Positions 2,215-19,499 of a stretch of DNA of 36,038 nucleotides are shown here, piece by piece. Each line of letters opens with the position of its first letter. Position 1 is the stretch's first letter. The notes under the pieces were generated by a model that was not told the DNA's origin, did no database searches, and saw nothing but the letters and a program-made list of their open reading frames with translations. Both the position numbers and the translations under genes were made by a program. The stretch covers positions 1 through 36,038 of the forward strand of contig JAHIRY010000010.1 in assembly GCA_018818405.1 (NCBI GenBank), in the 5' to 3' direction. Source of the DNA: Patescibacteria group bacterium. GTDB taxonomy: Bacteria; Patescibacteriota; Patescibacteriia; UBA11705; JABHMO01.

Positions 2215-5200
2215 ATGGAAATTCCAAAAACATACAGCCCGAAAGATTTTGAAGATGATATTTACAAAGACTGGGAAGCGCAAGAACTTTTCAATCCGGA
2301 CAAAATCAAACCGCGACGAAAAGAACATTTTTCCATTGTTCTGCCTCCCCCGAATGTCACCGGCACTTTGCATCTCGGCCACGCGTCAATGCTCGCGATC
2401 GAAGATTTGTTTGTTCGCTACAAAAGGATGCAAGGTTTTGACACCGCCTGGATTCCGGGAACTGATCACGCGGCCATTGCCACGCAAAATGTTGTTGAAA
2501 AAAAATTGTGGAAAGAAGAAGGAAAAACCCGGCACGATTTGGGCAGAGAAAGATTTTTGGAAAGAGTGGAAGCATATGTGGAAGATTCAAAAAATATAAT
2601 TCACAATCAGATTCGCAAAATGGGTGCGAGTCTTGATTGGAGCCGTGAAGCATACACTTTGGACGAAACCAGAGCGCGCGCCGTGCGTAAAGTTTTCAAG
2701 ATGATGTACGATGACGGTTTGATTTACCGCGGCTACAGAATTGTGAATTGGTGTCCGCGCTGCAAAACGACTTTGGCTGATGATGAAGTCGATTACAAGG
2801 AACAATCCGCCAAACTTTACACTTTCAAATACGACAAAAATTTTCCGTTCGCCATTGCCACGACCAGACCGGAAACAAAACTCGGAGACGCGGCCGTTGC
2901 CGTTAATCCGAATGATGAACGATATCAAGAATATATCGGCCAAATTTTTGATGTTAATTTTTGCGGAGTTGATTTGAAAATAAAAATCATCGCCGACGAT
3001 GCTGTTGAATCCGAATTCGGCACCGGCGCGCTCGGCGTCACTCCTGCGCACAGCGCGGTTGATTTTGACATGGCGCAAAAAAATAATTTGGAAATTATAA
3101 AAGTGATTGATGAAGACGCGAAAATGACGGACAAAGCGGGAAAATTCGCGGGAATGTCCGTTGAAGAAGCGAGAGAAAAAATCTCGGCTGAACTCGAAAA
3201 AAACGGATTGCTGGAAAAAACCGAAGAGCTCATCAATAATTTGTCTGTTTGTTATCGCTGTAAAAGCGCGATCGAACCGTTGACATCTGATCAATGGTTT
3301 ATCAATGTCAATAAAAAATTCAAAGTCCGCGGTTCTGAAATGAAAAAATCCGCGGGAAAAGAAGCGAGTTTGAAAGAACTTTCGCTCTCTGTTGTAAAAG
3401 ATAAAAACATAAACATAATTCCGGAGCGGTTTGAAAAAACATATTTTCATTGGATGGAAAATTTGCGCGATTGGTGCATTTCCCGCCAGCTCTGGTTCGG
3501 CCATCAAATTCCGGTTTGGTATTGCGAAGATTGCGCTGAATATGTTGTCACCGAACTTTCCGCCACCGAACTTTTCGTCATGCGCCACGGCGAAGCGAAA
3601 AATAATGTGCTCGACCAATTGAATTCTGATATTGAAAATCAAATAAACGGATTGACGGAAAAAGGAAAAGAACAAGTTGAAGCTGTTTTTGAAAAATTGA
3701 AAAATGAAAAAATCGGCGCGATTTATTGTTCTGATTTCAGGCGAACGAAAGAAACAGCTGCGATTATAAATGAAAAATTGAATTTGCCGATCATCGAAGA
3801 TCCTCGGCTGAGAGAAGTCGGCGTCGGTGAATTTGAAGGAAAACATGATGCGGAACTCGCAGCCTTCAGACAAAACAATTTCGCGCAGTGGCAAAATGAC
3901 AATCCGCACGGAATAGAATCTTTTGAAAGTTTGAAAACAAGAGTTTTCGCCTGTTTGGAAGAAATTGCGGAAAAATTTCCCGGCCAAAAAGTTTTAATCA
4001 TCACGCACGGCGATGTCTGCCGCATTGTTCAAGGTTTCAGAAAGAACATTGCCGATGAAAAACTTTTCAAAATGGATTATCCGCTGACCGGAGAGTATTT
4101 GCATTTGAAATTCGCGCCAATAAAATGCAAGTGCGGTTCGCAAAATTTGAAACAAGACGAAGACACTCTCGACACTTGGTTTTCAGCCGGACTTTGGACA
4201 TTCTCGACTTTGCTGGAAAAAGATTTTGAAACTTTCGACAAAAAAGAAAATCCGCTTTTAAAAAGATTTCATCCGACAACGGTTCTCGAAACCGGCTACG
4301 ATATTTTATTTTTCTGGGTCGCGCGCATGATTCTCATGACAACTTATGCGACGGGCGAAGTTCCGTTTGAAAATGTTTATTTGCACGGACTCATCCGCGA
4401 CAAAGAAGGCGACAAAATGTCAAAATCAAAACCCGAAACAGCGATCGATCCGCTCGACGCCGGTCGGAAATACGGATTTGACGCAGTGCGTTTGTCTCTG
4501 CTCATCGGCAATACGGCGGGCAATGATATTCGTTTATATGATGAAAAGATTGAAGGTTATCGAAATTTTGTGAATAAACTTTGGAATATTTCAAGATTTA
4601 TTTTGATGGAGCAAGGCGGGCGAGATAAGCAAGCAAGCGAGATAAGCGAGTTAAGCAAAACGCTGGCGGATCGATGGATTATTTCGAGATTCAACAAGTT
4701 GATTCGAGAAGTGACTAAATTGTTGGATGAATATAATTTTTCTTCTGCCGGCGAATTACTGCGCGAATTCACTTGGAATGATTTCGCGGATTGGTATTTG
4801 GAAATTTCCAAAGTGGAACAAAACAAAGAAGAGATGTTGAAATATATTTTTAAAAATTTGTTGAAGCTCTGGCATCCGTTCGTGCCGTTTGTGACGGAAA
4901 CAATTTGGAAACAAATGAATCCAAAAGAAAAATCGCTTATGATTTCCGAATGGCCGGAATTTGCTGAAAAAGCAATTGATGAAAACTCGGAAAAAGAATT
5001 TGAATCGGTTAAAGAATTGATAATCAAAATAAGAAATGTTCGCTCTGAAAATAAAGTTCAACCGGCAAAGAAAATAAGAATCTCAATAATTTCCGACAAT
5101 GAAAATTTAATAAAGGAACAGCGGGAAAATATCACTGCTTTGTCTCGAGCTGAAGTATTAACATTCACTCGGCAGGAACAGGAAAAATTCATAAAGGATT

Positions 5201-5445: not shown

Positions 5446-5483
5446 AAGTATTGTTTCTTGTAGCGCAACTGAAAATTATAAAT

Positions 5484-6323
5484 ATGGTGAATAAGAATCA
5501 ATCATTGGCGATTTTCGAAAATTTCAAAATTCGCCGGCATTACGATGAAAAAACTGAAACATGGTATTTTTCCGTTGTCGATATTATTTTTGCATTGACA
5601 GAAAGCAGTAATCCTACCGATTATTTAAAAAAGTTGAGAAAGCGAGATATGGAACTCGGAAATTATGTGGTGACAAATTGTCCCCAGGTAGAAATGATTA
5701 CAACAACAGGTAAAAAGAGAAAAACACTCGCAGGTACGGTGGAGCATTTGTTAAGAATAATTCAAGCGGTTCCGTCAAAAAAAGCCGAACCGATTAAACT
5801 CTGGCTGGCAAAAGTCGGATATGAGCGAATGCAAGAAATGGTTAATCCGGAAATCGCATTAAATCGTTCGCGTGAATATTGGCAAAAACAGGGAAGAAGC
5901 GAGAAGTGGATTCAACAGCGAATGTCAGGACAGGAAACCAGAAACAAGCTGACGGATTATTGGGCTGAGAATGATGTGAAAAAAGGCAATGAATTTGCGA
6001 TTTTGACAAATATTATTCACGAAGAATGGAGCGGTTTAACAGTTCAAGAACATAAAAAATCAAAGAGTTTGAAAACGCAAAATTTGCGAGATCACATGAG
6101 CGAAGCTGAACTTATTTTTACGGCGCTAGCGGAATTGTCCACCAGAGAGATTGCGAATGCCATGAAAGCGTGCGGACTGGAAGAGAATAAACTGCCGGCA
6201 AAGAGAGGCGGTAAGATTGCCAAGGGCGCGCGAATTGCCTTGGAAAAAAAGACAGGCAAAAGCATAATAACCAATGAAAATTTTTTGTCGCCGGCAAAAG
6301 TGAACCGGCGGAAATTAAAATAA
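5484..6323 (+). CDS. Bro-N / antirepressor-like domain protein
   Basis: N-terminal WYFSVVDIIFALTESSNPTDYLKKLRKRD resembles Bro-N; ATG at 5484 preferred over the 5451 start. Confidence 0.75.
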   Translation: MVNKNQSLAIFENFKIRRHYDEKTETWYFSVVDIIFALTESSNPTDYLKKLRKRDMELGNYVVTNCPQVEMITTTGKKRKTLAGTVEHLLRIIQAVPSKKAEPIKLWLAKVGYERMQEMVNPEIALNRSREYWQKQGRSEKWIQQRMSGQETRNKLTDYWAENDVKKGNEFAILTNIIHEEWSGLTVQEHKKSKSLKTQNLRDHMSEAELIFTALAELSTREIANAMKACGLEENKLPAKRGGKIAKGARIALEKKTGKSIITNENFLSPAKVNRRKLK

Positions 6324-15348: not shown

Positions 15349-15681
15349 ATGACAAGCAAAATGCAATTTGACGCAAAAGATGTTCGGGACAACAAAACAA
15401 TCGCCGCCTTGAGTTATGTCGGCGTTTTGTGTTTATTTCCTTTATTTTTAAAGAAAGACAGCCGTTATGTGCAGACTCACGCGAAACAAGGATTGGCTTT
15501 GTTTTTGGCGGAAATAATTATTTGGGTGCTGAATATTCTGCCGTTTATCGGACCGTTCATCTGGATGTTGTTCAGTCTGGTTTTTGTCGCTGTTTCAATT
15601 ATCGCGATAATAAAAACAATGCAGGGCGAGTACTGGGAAATTCCGGTTGTCAGCCAATACTCCGAAAAAATAAAAATATAA
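15349..15681 (+). CDS. DUF4870-like membrane protein
   Basis: DNKTIAALSYVGVLCLFPLFLKKDSRYVQTHAKQGLALFLAEIIIWV. Confidence 0.7.
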   Translation: MTSKMQFDAKDVRDNKTIAALSYVGVLCLFPLFLKKDSRYVQTHAKQGLALFLAEIIIWVLNILPFIGPFIWMLFSLVFVAVSIIAIIKTMQGEYWEIPVVSQYSEKIKI

Positions 15682-15689
15682 AAAAAATT

Positions 15690-17120
15690 ATGAAAAGGAC
15701 CAAAATCGTCTGTACTCTCGGACCCACTTCGGAAACAAAACAAATAATAAAAACATTGATCAAAAACGGAATGAATGTCGCGCGTCTGAATTTTTCGCAC
15801 AATGTCCATGAGTATCATTTGAAAGTAATAAAAAACATTCGCGAAGCGGCCAAAGAATCAAAAGCGACCGTGGCGATTCTGCAGGATTTGCAAGGTCCTC
15901 GGATCAGATTGGGCGATTTGCCCGAGGCGGGAATTCAGCTGGTAAAAGGAAAGGAAGTGATTCTCACGACTTCAAAAAAAGCCGGTGAAAACAAAATTCC
16001 CGTCACTTACGAAAACATGCATCTCGATGTTGAGCCGAACCAGCGGATATTGATCGCCGACGGTTTGATTGAAGTTGTAATAAAGGAAGTGAAGGGAAGA
16101 GATGTTTATTGCATTGTGAAAAACGGCGGACTGGTGACTTCTCACAAAGGAATGAATTTGCCGGACACGAATGTGACCGTTCCTTCGCTTTCCGAAAAAG
16201 ACAAAGAAGATTTATTTTTCGGAATAAAAAACAAAGTTGATTTTGTCGCTTTGTCGTTCGTGCGCAGCGCGAAGGAAGTTTATGATTTGAAATATTTGAT
16301 CAAGAAATATTCTCAGCAATTGAAATTGGATTCTCCGCATGAAATAAAAATTATCGTGAAAGTTGAAAGAATGGAAGCGATAAAAAATTTGGATGAAATA
16401 ATCGAAGCGACCGACGGCGTGATGGTGGCGCGCGGAGATTTGGGAATAGAGTTGCCGGCCGAAGATGTTCCTCTGATCCAGAAAATGATAATCGACAAAT
16501 GTCTGCAAGCGGCCAAGCCGGTGATTGTCGCCACGCAAATGCTTGATTCCATGATCAATAATCCGCGTCCGACCAGAGCCGAGGTCAGCGATGTGGCCAA
16601 TGCGGTAATCGATCACACTGACGCGGTTATGCTTTCCGGCGAAACGGCCAATGGAAAATTTCCGGCGGAAACAGTGGATGTTATGGCGAAAATTATCAAT
16701 AAAACGGAAGCATCAACTTATGATGATATCGTTTTGCAGGATAAACTGAAAAAAATAATTTCCACCGGCGAAGCGGTGAGCAGTATCGCAAAGATGCTGG
16801 CCAATCATCTGGACGCGAAATTAATTTTAGTCGCTTCATTGTCCGGAGATTCCGCTCGCATCGTTTGCCGTTATCGTCCGGAATTGCCGATGCTCGTCGC
16901 TTGCGACGATGAAAGAATCCAACGGCAGCTTATGTTGTCATGGGGAATCATCCCGTTTATATTGCCTCATTGCGAATCATTGGAAGAATTGATTGACCGA
17001 TCCATCGGATTTATAAAGAAAAAAAAGTTCGCCAAAAAGGAAGAAACAATTATAATTATTGCCGGCGAACCGGTCGGCGTGAGCGGAAATGTCAATTTGG
17101 TGGAAATAAAAGAAATATAA
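15690..17120 (+). CDS. pyk: Pyruvate kinase
   Basis: MKRTKIVCTLGPTSETK, NVARLNFSHN, LQDLQGPRIRLG, VMVARGDLGIELP, ATQMLDSMINNPRPTRAEVSDVANAV; start at 15690, not 15429. Confidence 0.95.
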   Translation: MKRTKIVCTLGPTSETKQIIKTLIKNGMNVARLNFSHNVHEYHLKVIKNIREAAKESKATVAILQDLQGPRIRLGDLPEAGIQLVKGKEVILTTSKKAGENKIPVTYENMHLDVEPNQRILIADGLIEVVIKEVKGRDVYCIVKNGGLVTSHKGMNLPDTNVTVPSLSEKDKEDLFFGIKNKVDFVALSFVRSAKEVYDLKYLIKKYSQQLKLDSPHEIKIIVKVERMEAIKNLDEIIEATDGVMVARGDLGIELPAEDVPLIQKMIIDKCLQAAKPVIVATQMLDSMINNPRPTRAEVSDVANAVIDHTDAVMLSGETANGKFPAETVDVMAKIINKTEASTYDDIVLQDKLKKIISTGEAVSSIAKMLANHLDAKLILVASLSGDSARIVCRYRPELPMLVACDDERIQRQLMLSWGIIPFILPHCESLEELIDRSIGFIKKKKFAKKEETIIIIAGEPVGVSGNVNLVEIKEI

Positions 17121-17123
17121 ATT

Positions 17124-19499
17124 ATGAAAAGCCGCAAAGATAAATACATTTTGTTTTTTTCGGAAATCGGAAAAAAAGATATCAGCCTTGTCGGCGGAAA
17201 GAATGCGGCTCTGGGTGAAATGTACGGAAAAATAAGCAAGCTCGGAATCAATGTTCCGAACGGTTTTAGCGTGACAGCCAAAGCGTATTTTGATTTTATC
17301 AAAGAATCGAAACTGAACGGAAAAATCGCTGATATTCTCAGCGGACTGGACACGCGGAATGTTGAAGATTTGCAAAATCGCAGCGAACAAGTTCGAAATT
17401 TGATCACGCAAGCTGAGTTTTCGGAAATTTTGAAAAAACAAATTATCGAAGCATACGAGAAATTGTCAGCGCATTACAAAACGAAAAATTTGTCAGTGGC
17501 TGTTCGCAGTTCAGCGACAGCGGAAGATCTGCCGATGGCTTCATTTGCCGGACAGCTGGAATCGTATTTGAATATTTCCGGCGAACGGGAATTGCTATCG
17601 CATATTCGAAAAAGTTTTGCCTCTCTTTTCACTGATCGCGCCATTTCTTATCGGGAAGACAAACATTTTCCGCTCTGGCGCGTCGGCGTTTCCGTGGGCG
17701 TGCAAAAGATGGTGCGGAGCGACAGAGCTTCCGCCGGCGTAATGTTCACGCTGGAAACGGAAAGCGGTTTTCGCGATCTGGTGATGATTGACGCGGGCTG
17801 GGGATTGGGAGAAAATGTGGTAAAAGGAAGAATTTCTCCTGATGAATATTTTGTTTTCAAAAAAACTCTTAATAAAAAATTCAAACCGATTATAAAAAAG
17901 TTTATCGGAGAAAAAGAATGGACATTGCGGTATTCGGAAAAAAACGCGAAGACAACGAAAAATATTTTGACGAAAAAAGAAGACAGAATCAAGACAGTTT
18001 TGTCTGATGAAGAAATACTAATACTGGCGCGCTATGGAATGGCAATTGAAAATCATTTCAAAAGGCCGATGGATATTGAATGGGCGAAAGACGGAGCTGA
18101 CAAAAAAATTTACATTGTGCAGGCCAGACCGGAAACGGTTCATACGCAAAAACTTCAGCACATCGCAACAGAGTTTAGTTTAAAAGAAAAATCAGAAAGC
18201 TTGGTCAGCGGAGTCTCCATCGGCAGAAAAATTTCCACCGGCATTATTAGAGTGATCAAATCGGAAAAAGAATTGTCATCTTTCCATCCGGGCGAAATCT
18301 TGGTTGCAAAATCAACTGATCCGGCCTGGGAGCCGATAATGAAAAAAGCGGCCGCCATTATCACTGATTCCGGCGGGCGGACTTGCCACGCGGCCATTGT
18401 CAGCCGCGAGCTCGGAGTTCCTTGCGTTGTCGGAACGGGAAATGCGACCGAAATTCTGAAAACCGGACAAAAAGCCACTGTTGATTGCGCGTCCGGCGCG
18501 CAAGGAAAAGTTTATTCCGGCTGGTTGAAATTTGACGTGAAGAAAATCAATTTGAAGAAAATAAAACTTCCTTCAAAAGTTGATATCATGATGAATATCG
18601 GCTCTCCGGAAATCGCTTTTGTCGATTCATTCCTGCCGAACAGGGGAGTCGGACTCGCCCGCGAAGAATTCATCATCAGCAATTATATAAAAGTGCATCC
18701 GCTGGCATTGCTCGATTATCTGAATTTGCCGGCAGGATTGAAAAATAAAATTGAAAAGATTTCCCCTTCGCACGAGAACAAAGCGCAATTTTTCGTTGAC
18801 AAGCTGGCCGAGGGAGTCGGACAGATCGCGGCCGCTTTTTTTCCGAAAGAAGTGATTGTCCGTTTTTCCGATTTTAAAACCAATGAATACCGAAGCTTGC
18901 TCGGCGGAAATTTGTACGAACCGGCGGAAGCCAATCCCATGCTCGGCTGGCGCGGCGCGTCTCGCTATTATGATGAAAAATTCAAAAAAGCTTTTGTCCT
19001 GGAAATAAATGCGATCAAAAAAGTGATCAATGAATTCGGTTTGAACAATGTCAATGTAATGATTCCGTTTTGCCGGTCAGTGGAAGAAGCGAAAAAAGTG
19101 ATTCAAATTCTCGCTGAAAACGGATTGAAAAGAAATAAAAATTTCAAAATATATTTGATGTGCGAATTGCCGGTCAATATTATTCTGGCGGAAGAATTTT
19201 TAAAATTGGTTGACGGCTACAGCATCGGAAGCAATGATCTGACGCAATTGATTTTGGGCGTTGACCGCGATTCCGCGCTGGTTAGCGAAATTTATGATGA
19301 ATTGAATCCGGCTGTATTGCGAAGCATTTCTCAAGTGATAAAAATTTGCCGGAAGAAAAAGAAAAAAATAGGAATTTGCGGTCAAGCGCCGTCTGATTTT
19401 CCCGAATTCGCCCGCTTCCTCGTAAAAAATAAAATCAACAGCATGTCGCTGACGCCCGACTCGGTAACCGACGTGATTTCGAACATCAGGAAAATTTAA
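17124..19499 (+). CDS. ppsA: Phosphoenolpyruvate synthase
   Basis: LVGGKNAALGEMYGKISKLGINVPNGFSVTA, AITDSGGRTCHAAIVSRELGVPCVVGTG (phospho-His), CGQAPSDFPEFARFLV. Confidence 0.95.
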   Translation: MKSRKDKYILFFSEIGKKDISLVGGKNAALGEMYGKISKLGINVPNGFSVTAKAYFDFIKESKLNGKIADILSGLDTRNVEDLQNRSEQVRNLITQAEFSEILKKQIIEAYEKLSAHYKTKNLSVAVRSSATAEDLPMASFAGQLESYLNISGERELLSHIRKSFASLFTDRAISYREDKHFPLWRVGVSVGVQKMVRSDRASAGVMFTLETESGFRDLVMIDAGWGLGENVVKGRISPDEYFVFKKTLNKKFKPIIKKFIGEKEWTLRYSEKNAKTTKNILTKKEDRIKTVLSDEEILILARYGMAIENHFKRPMDIEWAKDGADKKIYIVQARPETVHTQKLQHIATEFSLKEKSESLVSGVSIGRKISTGIIRVIKSEKELSSFHPGEILVAKSTDPAWEPIMKKAAAIITDSGGRTCHAAIVSRELGVPCVVGTGNATEILKTGQKATVDCASGAQGKVYSGWLKFDVKKINLKKIKLPSKVDIMMNIGSPEIAFVDSFLPNRGVGLAREEFIISNYIKVHPLALLDYLNLPAGLKNKIEKISPSHENKAQFFVDKLAEGVGQIAAAFFPKEVIVRFSDFKTNEYRSLLGGNLYEPAEANPMLGWRGASRYYDEKFKKAFVLEINAIKKVINEFGLNNVNVMIPFCRSVEEAKKVIQILAENGLKRNKNFKIYLMCELPVNIILAEEFLKLVDGYSIGSNDLTQLILGVDRDSALVSEIYDELNPAVLRSISQVIKICRKKKKKIGICGQAPSDFPEFARFLVKNKINSMSLTPDSVTDVISNIRKI

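Follow-up and report, generated by a model that had tools for sequence, protein, structure and literature searches.

Histidine phosphatase domains nested in valyl- and isoleucyl-tRNA synthetases of Patescibacteria

Few enzymes are as conserved or as well studied as the aminoacyl-tRNA synthetases. In bacterial valyl-tRNA synthetase (ValRS; TIGR00422; T. thermophilus, 1gax), the catalytic, editing, anticodon and tRNA-binding-arm domains follow each other in this order. The ValRS described here, encoded in a stretch of 36,038 nucleotides of Patescibacteria DNA (the window), keeps that order but, unlike the bacterial enzyme, has an enzyme domain of approximately 190 residues between the 2 Cys pairs of zinc knuckle 2. 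The CP1 editing domain of the Ile, Val and Leu synthetases is likewise a hydrolase inserted into the catalytic core of these same 3 enzymes; however, CP1 is ancestral and deacylates tRNA, whereas the phosphatase-fold insert is lineage-specific and sits in the following connective peptide. NCBIfam NF040702 (ileS_w_GNAT), known to us by its model name only, also pairs a branched-chain synthetase with an additional catalytic domain, but that domain is an acetyltransferase and thus belongs to another enzyme family than the window insert. In mycobacterial MutT1, which combines NUDIX and histidine phosphatase domains, a histidine phosphatase is coupled to nucleotide clean-up, but no synthetase is involved, and the sequence match to the window insert is very weak. 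Phosphatases of the PhoE/alpha-ribazole phosphatase CobC type (PF00300; 1h2e, 6e4b) share with the insert the fold, the RHG motif, the Arg, the Glu and the second His; unlike them, the insert is nested in a synthetase, has an NSD-type loop in place of the xQGxxDxPLT-type loop, and carries HGD at the second His. A 2026 survey of domain insertions lists the synthetases with the editing domain as their inserted module (PMC13114784), and in the open-licence literature we found no paper linking a histidine phosphatase with isoleucyl-tRNA synthetase (IleRS) or ValRS in nested form. Each of the component families is known; the phylum-wide pattern appears to be new. What is unexpected is that a probably active metabolic enzyme is nested in synthetases, was acquired many times within a single phylum, occupies several sites and reaches 3 copies in a protein.

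The window is contig C33 of a nearly complete genome of 1.06 Mb. Its valS gene is uninterrupted, as stated in the preliminary description, and forms a single frame of 1076 amino acids that is free of stops from start to end (Table 1). Pfam finds tRNA-synt_1 split by His_Phos_1, confirming the predicted nesting, followed by Anticodon_1 and Val_tRNA-synt_C, and the NCBIfam valS equivalog (NF004349) scores 1020.7 bits, over its cut-off, in 2 pieces of which the best covers residues 5–449. The protein has the HIGH and KMSKS motifs, the editing domain and the Val-specific C-terminal arm of a ValRS. The editing domain appears intact except for an Asp-to-Ser change after PAH (TPAHD to TPAHS, window 3037–3063). 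TPAHS occurs in most of the CPR ValRS examined, whether the insert is present or absent; loss of the editing Asp linked to the insert is ruled out, since Ser is found alike in filled and in most empty CPR ValRS. The window ValRS is a class Ia synthetase that is normal apart from a complete PhoE/CobC-like histidine phosphatase in the loop of zinc knuckle 2, and very likely still charges tRNA-Val. On the KMSKS side, residues 701–780 (window 4315–4554) are 89%–92% identical to L007, L008 and L012, compared to approximately 60% for the rest of the host; from this stretch, it is possible that valS is a mosaic.

Table 1. Features of the valS gene and its nested domain; coordinates are those of the window, residue numbers those of the 1076-residue protein.
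Feature	Coordinates	Strand	Basis
valS, valyl-tRNA synthetase with nested phosphatase, 1076 aa	2215..5445	+	ORF, Pfam, NCBIfam
HIGH motif (HLGH, aa 53-56), catalytic domain	2371..2382	+	sequence; 1gax alignment
CP1 editing domain core (TTRPET...FGTGALGVTPAHSAVD, aa 216-283), host part	2860..3063	+	Pfam, comparison with kin
Zinc knuckle 2, first half: C437-E-D-C440	3523..3534	+	1gax alignment
Nested histidine phosphatase insert, aa 446-633	3550..4113	+	Pfam, alignment, insert model
His_Phos_1 (PF00300) match, aa 453-620	3571..4074	+	Pfam, 135.8 bits, E 1.9e-39
R457-H458-G459: predicted phosphate-binding Arg and nucleophile His	3583..3591	+	alignments
Arg510, predicted second catalytic Arg	3742..3744	+	alignments
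Glu534 (LREVG), predicted general acid	3814..3816	+	alignments
His598 (THGD), predicted second catalytic His	4006..4008	+	alignments
Zinc knuckle 2, second half: C638-K-C640	4126..4134	+	1gax alignment
KMSKS motif (aa 734-738)	4414..4428	+	1gax alignment

The proposal that a full histidine phosphatase lies inside the synthetase is borne out by the His_Phos_1 match, which far exceeds the PF00300 gathering score of 21.7 bits and contains the RHG, the Arg, the acid and the second His. In the alignment with 1gax, the match to T. thermophilus ValRS ends at residue 422, after WYCEDC, and restarts at residue 435, before the second Cys pair, so that approximately 12 residues of the T. thermophilus enzyme are replaced by approximately 190 in the window ValRS. 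This alignment agrees with the earlier view that the insert splits a zinc knuckle; the second Cys pair, however, had been taken for CxxC and is in fact CxC in the window protein. The knuckle cysteines are lost in several relatives with the window-type insert (L007, L008, L011 and L012). Within the host, the insert follows the editing domain and precedes the second half of the catalytic fold. The corresponding stretch of IleRS is CP2 (PMC10485003), a name that may be extended to the region of the ValRS insert.

Modelled alone, the insert gave a pLDDT of 85.2 and a pTM of 0.84, and Foldseek returned the phosphatase PhoE (1h2e) as the best PDB match (E 3.7e-14, TM 0.80), placing the model in the phosphoglycerate mutase-like alpha/beta fold. 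The model of the whole protein, built from 8 sequences only, has a pLDDT of 59.6, too low to support estimates of domain docking or distances. Phosphoglycerate mutase models all score the insert below their cut-offs (NF038349, 93 versus 225 bits; TIGR01258, 38.8 versus 81.7 bits; GpmB, 66.3 versus 261 bits), and a glycolytic mutase was rejected on this ground. The models for alpha-ribazole phosphatase CobC (TIGR03162, 106.8 versus 162.9 bits) and PspA-type phosphoserine phosphatase (NF045917, 74.4 versus 350 bits) likewise stay below cut-off, and because none of these equivalog models is reached, we class the insert at the level of the superfamily. A position in a connective peptide next to the editing domain, in 2 closely related synthetases, would suit a phosphatase directed at tRNA, either clearing phosphate from damaged tRNA ends or acting on the 3' end as it swings between the synthetic and editing sites. 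Such a role is nevertheless very unlikely, as the nearest characterised relatives (PhoE, CobC, PspA and GpgP) use small molecules and no specificity for Ile or Val tRNAs is known.

Judged by the insert, close kin of the window ValRS are in records of Candidatus Falkowbacteria and other Patescibacteria. A window-type insert is present at the same position in 8 relatives (47%–63% identity), and the named records that have it stem from several separate projects. The RHG, Arg510, Glu534 and His598 are invariant across these kin, in line with the earlier claim of intact catalytic residues; neither an artificial joining of 2 genes nor loss of the catalytic His was seen among the homologues. Beyond the fact that every sequence is metagenome-assembled, nothing was found to support an assembly chimera or a misread frame, and we give this explanation practically no credence: the frame is continuous, the flanks align on both sides, and independent Falkowbacteria genomes share the architecture, which is present in 7 named records and many further genomes. 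Insert and host have diverged to a similar degree (37%–63% versus 47%–68% identity, with the close pair L009/L010 left out). Values of dN/dS for the insert are 0.09–0.33 in the 4 computable pairs, with dS saturated in 2 pairs, and between the window and L005, dN is lower in the insert (0.23) than in the host (0.40). The intact catalytic set and this purifying selection together make it very likely that the insert is an active enzyme, as had been proposed, and neither a mutase nor a relic. It would be a phosphomonoesterase, with His458 as the nucleophile, Arg457, Arg510 and His598 as phosphate ligands, and Glu534 as the acid.

The pattern is wider than the single gene first noted. A search with the insert gave matches within long frames in 35 of 93 related genomes, and when PF00300 was searched in the class (287 genomes) and the phylum (241 genomes), the matches listed included many further cases. 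Approximately 100 long frames with PF00300 matches were retrieved for examination; host identity was assigned from motifs and reading, and Pfam was run on 7 examples. All examined Patescibacteria frames of at least 600 amino acids with His_Phos_1 are ValRS (33 domains) or IleRS (81 domains). The architecture is phylum-wide, occurs in both synthetases and at several sites, and involves several phosphatase subtypes; in Patescibacteria, domains of this kind have repeatedly entered the same connective-peptide region of the two enzymes. With few exceptions, the IleRS inserts occupy the homologous loop of the zinc knuckle, flanked by WGTPLPVWxC and DLHRPYIDE. Those of ValRS are mostly in the knuckle, with 3 at a second, different site. 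Taken over both hosts, insertion is usually in this same knuckle but also at 2 or more other sites, and up to 3 domains occur per protein. Tandem pairs are present in family f148 (L137–L139 and L154–L156) and in the ValRS L149. A 1572-residue IleRS (L145:2667-7382) has 3 histidine phosphatases: in the knuckle, at the equivalent of the second ValRS site and further downstream.

Conservation across this set is high. The nucleophile His, the second Arg and the second His are present in all 114 synthetase-borne domains, and the complete Arg-His-Arg-Glu-His set is exact in 108 (111 if Asp is allowed for Glu); the exceptions are 3 ValRS inserts that lack the first Arg (VHG) and 3 IleRS inserts with Asp for Glu. 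Of 87 synthetase-borne domains (taken from the IleRS, window-type and site-B sets, with second tandem copies excluded), 62 have HGD at the second His, compared to 5 of 44 free-standing ones.

To follow the history of the inserts, we used quick maximum-likelihood trees without bootstrap. In the tree of 166 domains, many of whose inner branches are weak, the window type forms one ValRS clade. This clade lies within a large group that is nearly all synthetase-borne (66 IleRS, 12 ValRS and 2 free-standing domains), and several other groups hold additional inserts from both synthetases. The clades of synthetase-borne domains are largely host-specific. On the ValRS host tree, built without the inserts, the filled or empty state needs 18 changes, 14 of them forced by well-supported branches, and the window-type insert alone needs at least 4. 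The inserts of the window and L005 are sisters, yet their hosts are distant from each other, and an empty ValRS (L109) is among the near kin of the window host. Because insert type conflicts with host phylogeny in this way, the simplest reading is that the insert was gained, lost and exchanged repeatedly and independently of the host, and spread by homologous recombination through the conserved synthetase flanks is plausible. Repeated gain and loss could also be expected of a structural or neutral passenger: a permissive loop would tolerate the compact domain, which would spread by recombination, have an incidental activity and perhaps bring some benefit for stability or oligomerisation. The knuckle loop varies in length in its empty state too (25–63 amino acids), and the VHG inserts have lost a catalytic residue, both of which are consistent with such a passenger; retention of the catalytic residues in nearly all of the domains across large divergence, and the dN/dS values of the insert, argue against it and make it quite unlikely.

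Histidine phosphatases are not the only enzymes found in these synthetases. A profile search gave PF06821 matches in approximately 20 long frames. Of the frames scanned, L214, L215, L217, L218, L220 and L227 are leucyl-tRNA synthetases (LeuRS) with an RBBP9-like serine hydrolase located before, inside or after the editing domain, and one of them (L217) has a NUDIX domain besides. Most of the remaining long frames have HIGH and KMS motifs, which taken alone are consistent with LeuRS. In the surveys for NUDIX and HAD domains, free-standing matches were too numerous for an estimate of insertion frequency. Given the inserts of HAD, NUDIX and RBBP9-like families, the phosphatase case belongs to a wider tendency to insert small hydrolases into the Leu, Ile and Val synthetases. 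Individual frames noted in the course of these searches are a ValRS with HAD_2, an RBBP9-like serine hydrolase and His_Phos_1 (L134:1827-5657), a ValRS-like frame with HAD and NUDIX domains (L232:2365-5955), and a glycosyltransferase frame with a serine hydrolase match inside (L225:2908-5883).

The preliminary description had suggested, as speculation, removal of a nucleotide or phosphorylated by-product, regulation of charging, or a reshaped editing or catalytic geometry. Could the phosphatase act in cis, on a product or a ligand of the synthetase? Targets would be by-products of charging (AMP, PPi or Ap4A-type nucleotides) or nucleotide-like inhibitors of the Leu, Ile and Val synthetases, and the purpose built-in clean-up or resistance. 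The exclusive use of Ile and Val synthetases as hosts among the examined frames, the presence of further hydrolases of phosphate compounds (NUDIX and HAD) among the inserted families, a pace of gain, loss and exchange that resembles that of detoxification genes, and host-specific clades with a derived HGD motif in common all point this way. However, such by-products are common to all synthetases, which leaves the restriction to Ile and Val unexplained, and the several hydrolase chemistries have no obvious single target in common, so that we regard a role in cis as possible but doubtful, although it is the main rival of our preferred reading. An extended version, in which rapidly swapped phosphatases, NUDIX, HAD and serine hydrolases would form a multi-enzyme platform with one common purpose at the synthetase, for example the destruction of nucleotide-like inhibitors or of toxic by-products of Leu, Ile and Val charging, seems unlikely; if true, it would be an extra layer of protection beside editing.

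Tentatively, with a probability of roughly 0.4, we prefer to see the phosphatase as a phosphomonoesterase module that is tethered but works largely on its own. Compact hydrolases would find permissive insertion sites in the connective-peptide loops of the Leu, Ile and Val synthetases, and in these small genomes the synthetase would also carry a house-cleaning phosphatase whose substrate is a small phosphorylated metabolite. We favour an autonomous module because there are several hydrolase families, several sites and apparent exchangeability, and because at most one of the Ile and Val synthetases is filled per genome: none of the 93 genomes has both filled (chance 0.019 if independent, phylogeny ignored). 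Strict mutual exclusion is ruled out by G488, a genome outside the class with both IleRS and ValRS filled, which itself counts against a carrier role. Free-standing His_Phos_1 relatives are somewhat rarer in filled genomes (16 of 32) than in unfilled ones (41 of 57; p 0.065, phylogeny ignored), a weak deficit that speaks for an autonomous module, but half of the filled genomes still hold one, which speaks against it. Restriction to Ile and Val synthetases (Leu for the other hydrolases) is not explained by carriage unless permissive sites are exclusive to these enzymes, and the host-specific clades with their derived HGD signature suggest a specific shared job instead. The biochemistry of Patescibacteria is poorly known, and the nested phosphatases offer a concrete way into it.

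A profile built on the fused region of IleRS scores 188 bits on the window ValRS; the IleRS of that genome is empty, and the profile matches it as 2 flanking pieces. With this profile, no fused match was obtained in 399 and 397 genomes from the phyla of the Ruminococcus and Nocardioides records, where the best 6 candidates per genome were scored and the positive control came from a separate search; the fused architecture is likely absent from those 2 phyla. In G000, partial free-standing His_Phos_1 matches in the first 300 bases of contigs C16 and C8 (L002 and L003) cover complementary halves of the family and are probably one gene divided by the assembly. Mutase-like His_Phos domains are also fused in 3 frames of 486–552 amino acids, with flanks that by eye resemble a 2-hydroxyacid dehydrogenase (L169 and L170) or the start of pyruvate kinase (L171). 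In the window, the frame directly after valS (5451–6323) has a weak Bro-N match, under the Pfam cut-off, and at 15429–19499 a pyruvate kinase gene is directly followed by a gene of the pyruvate phosphate dikinase/PEP synthase type.
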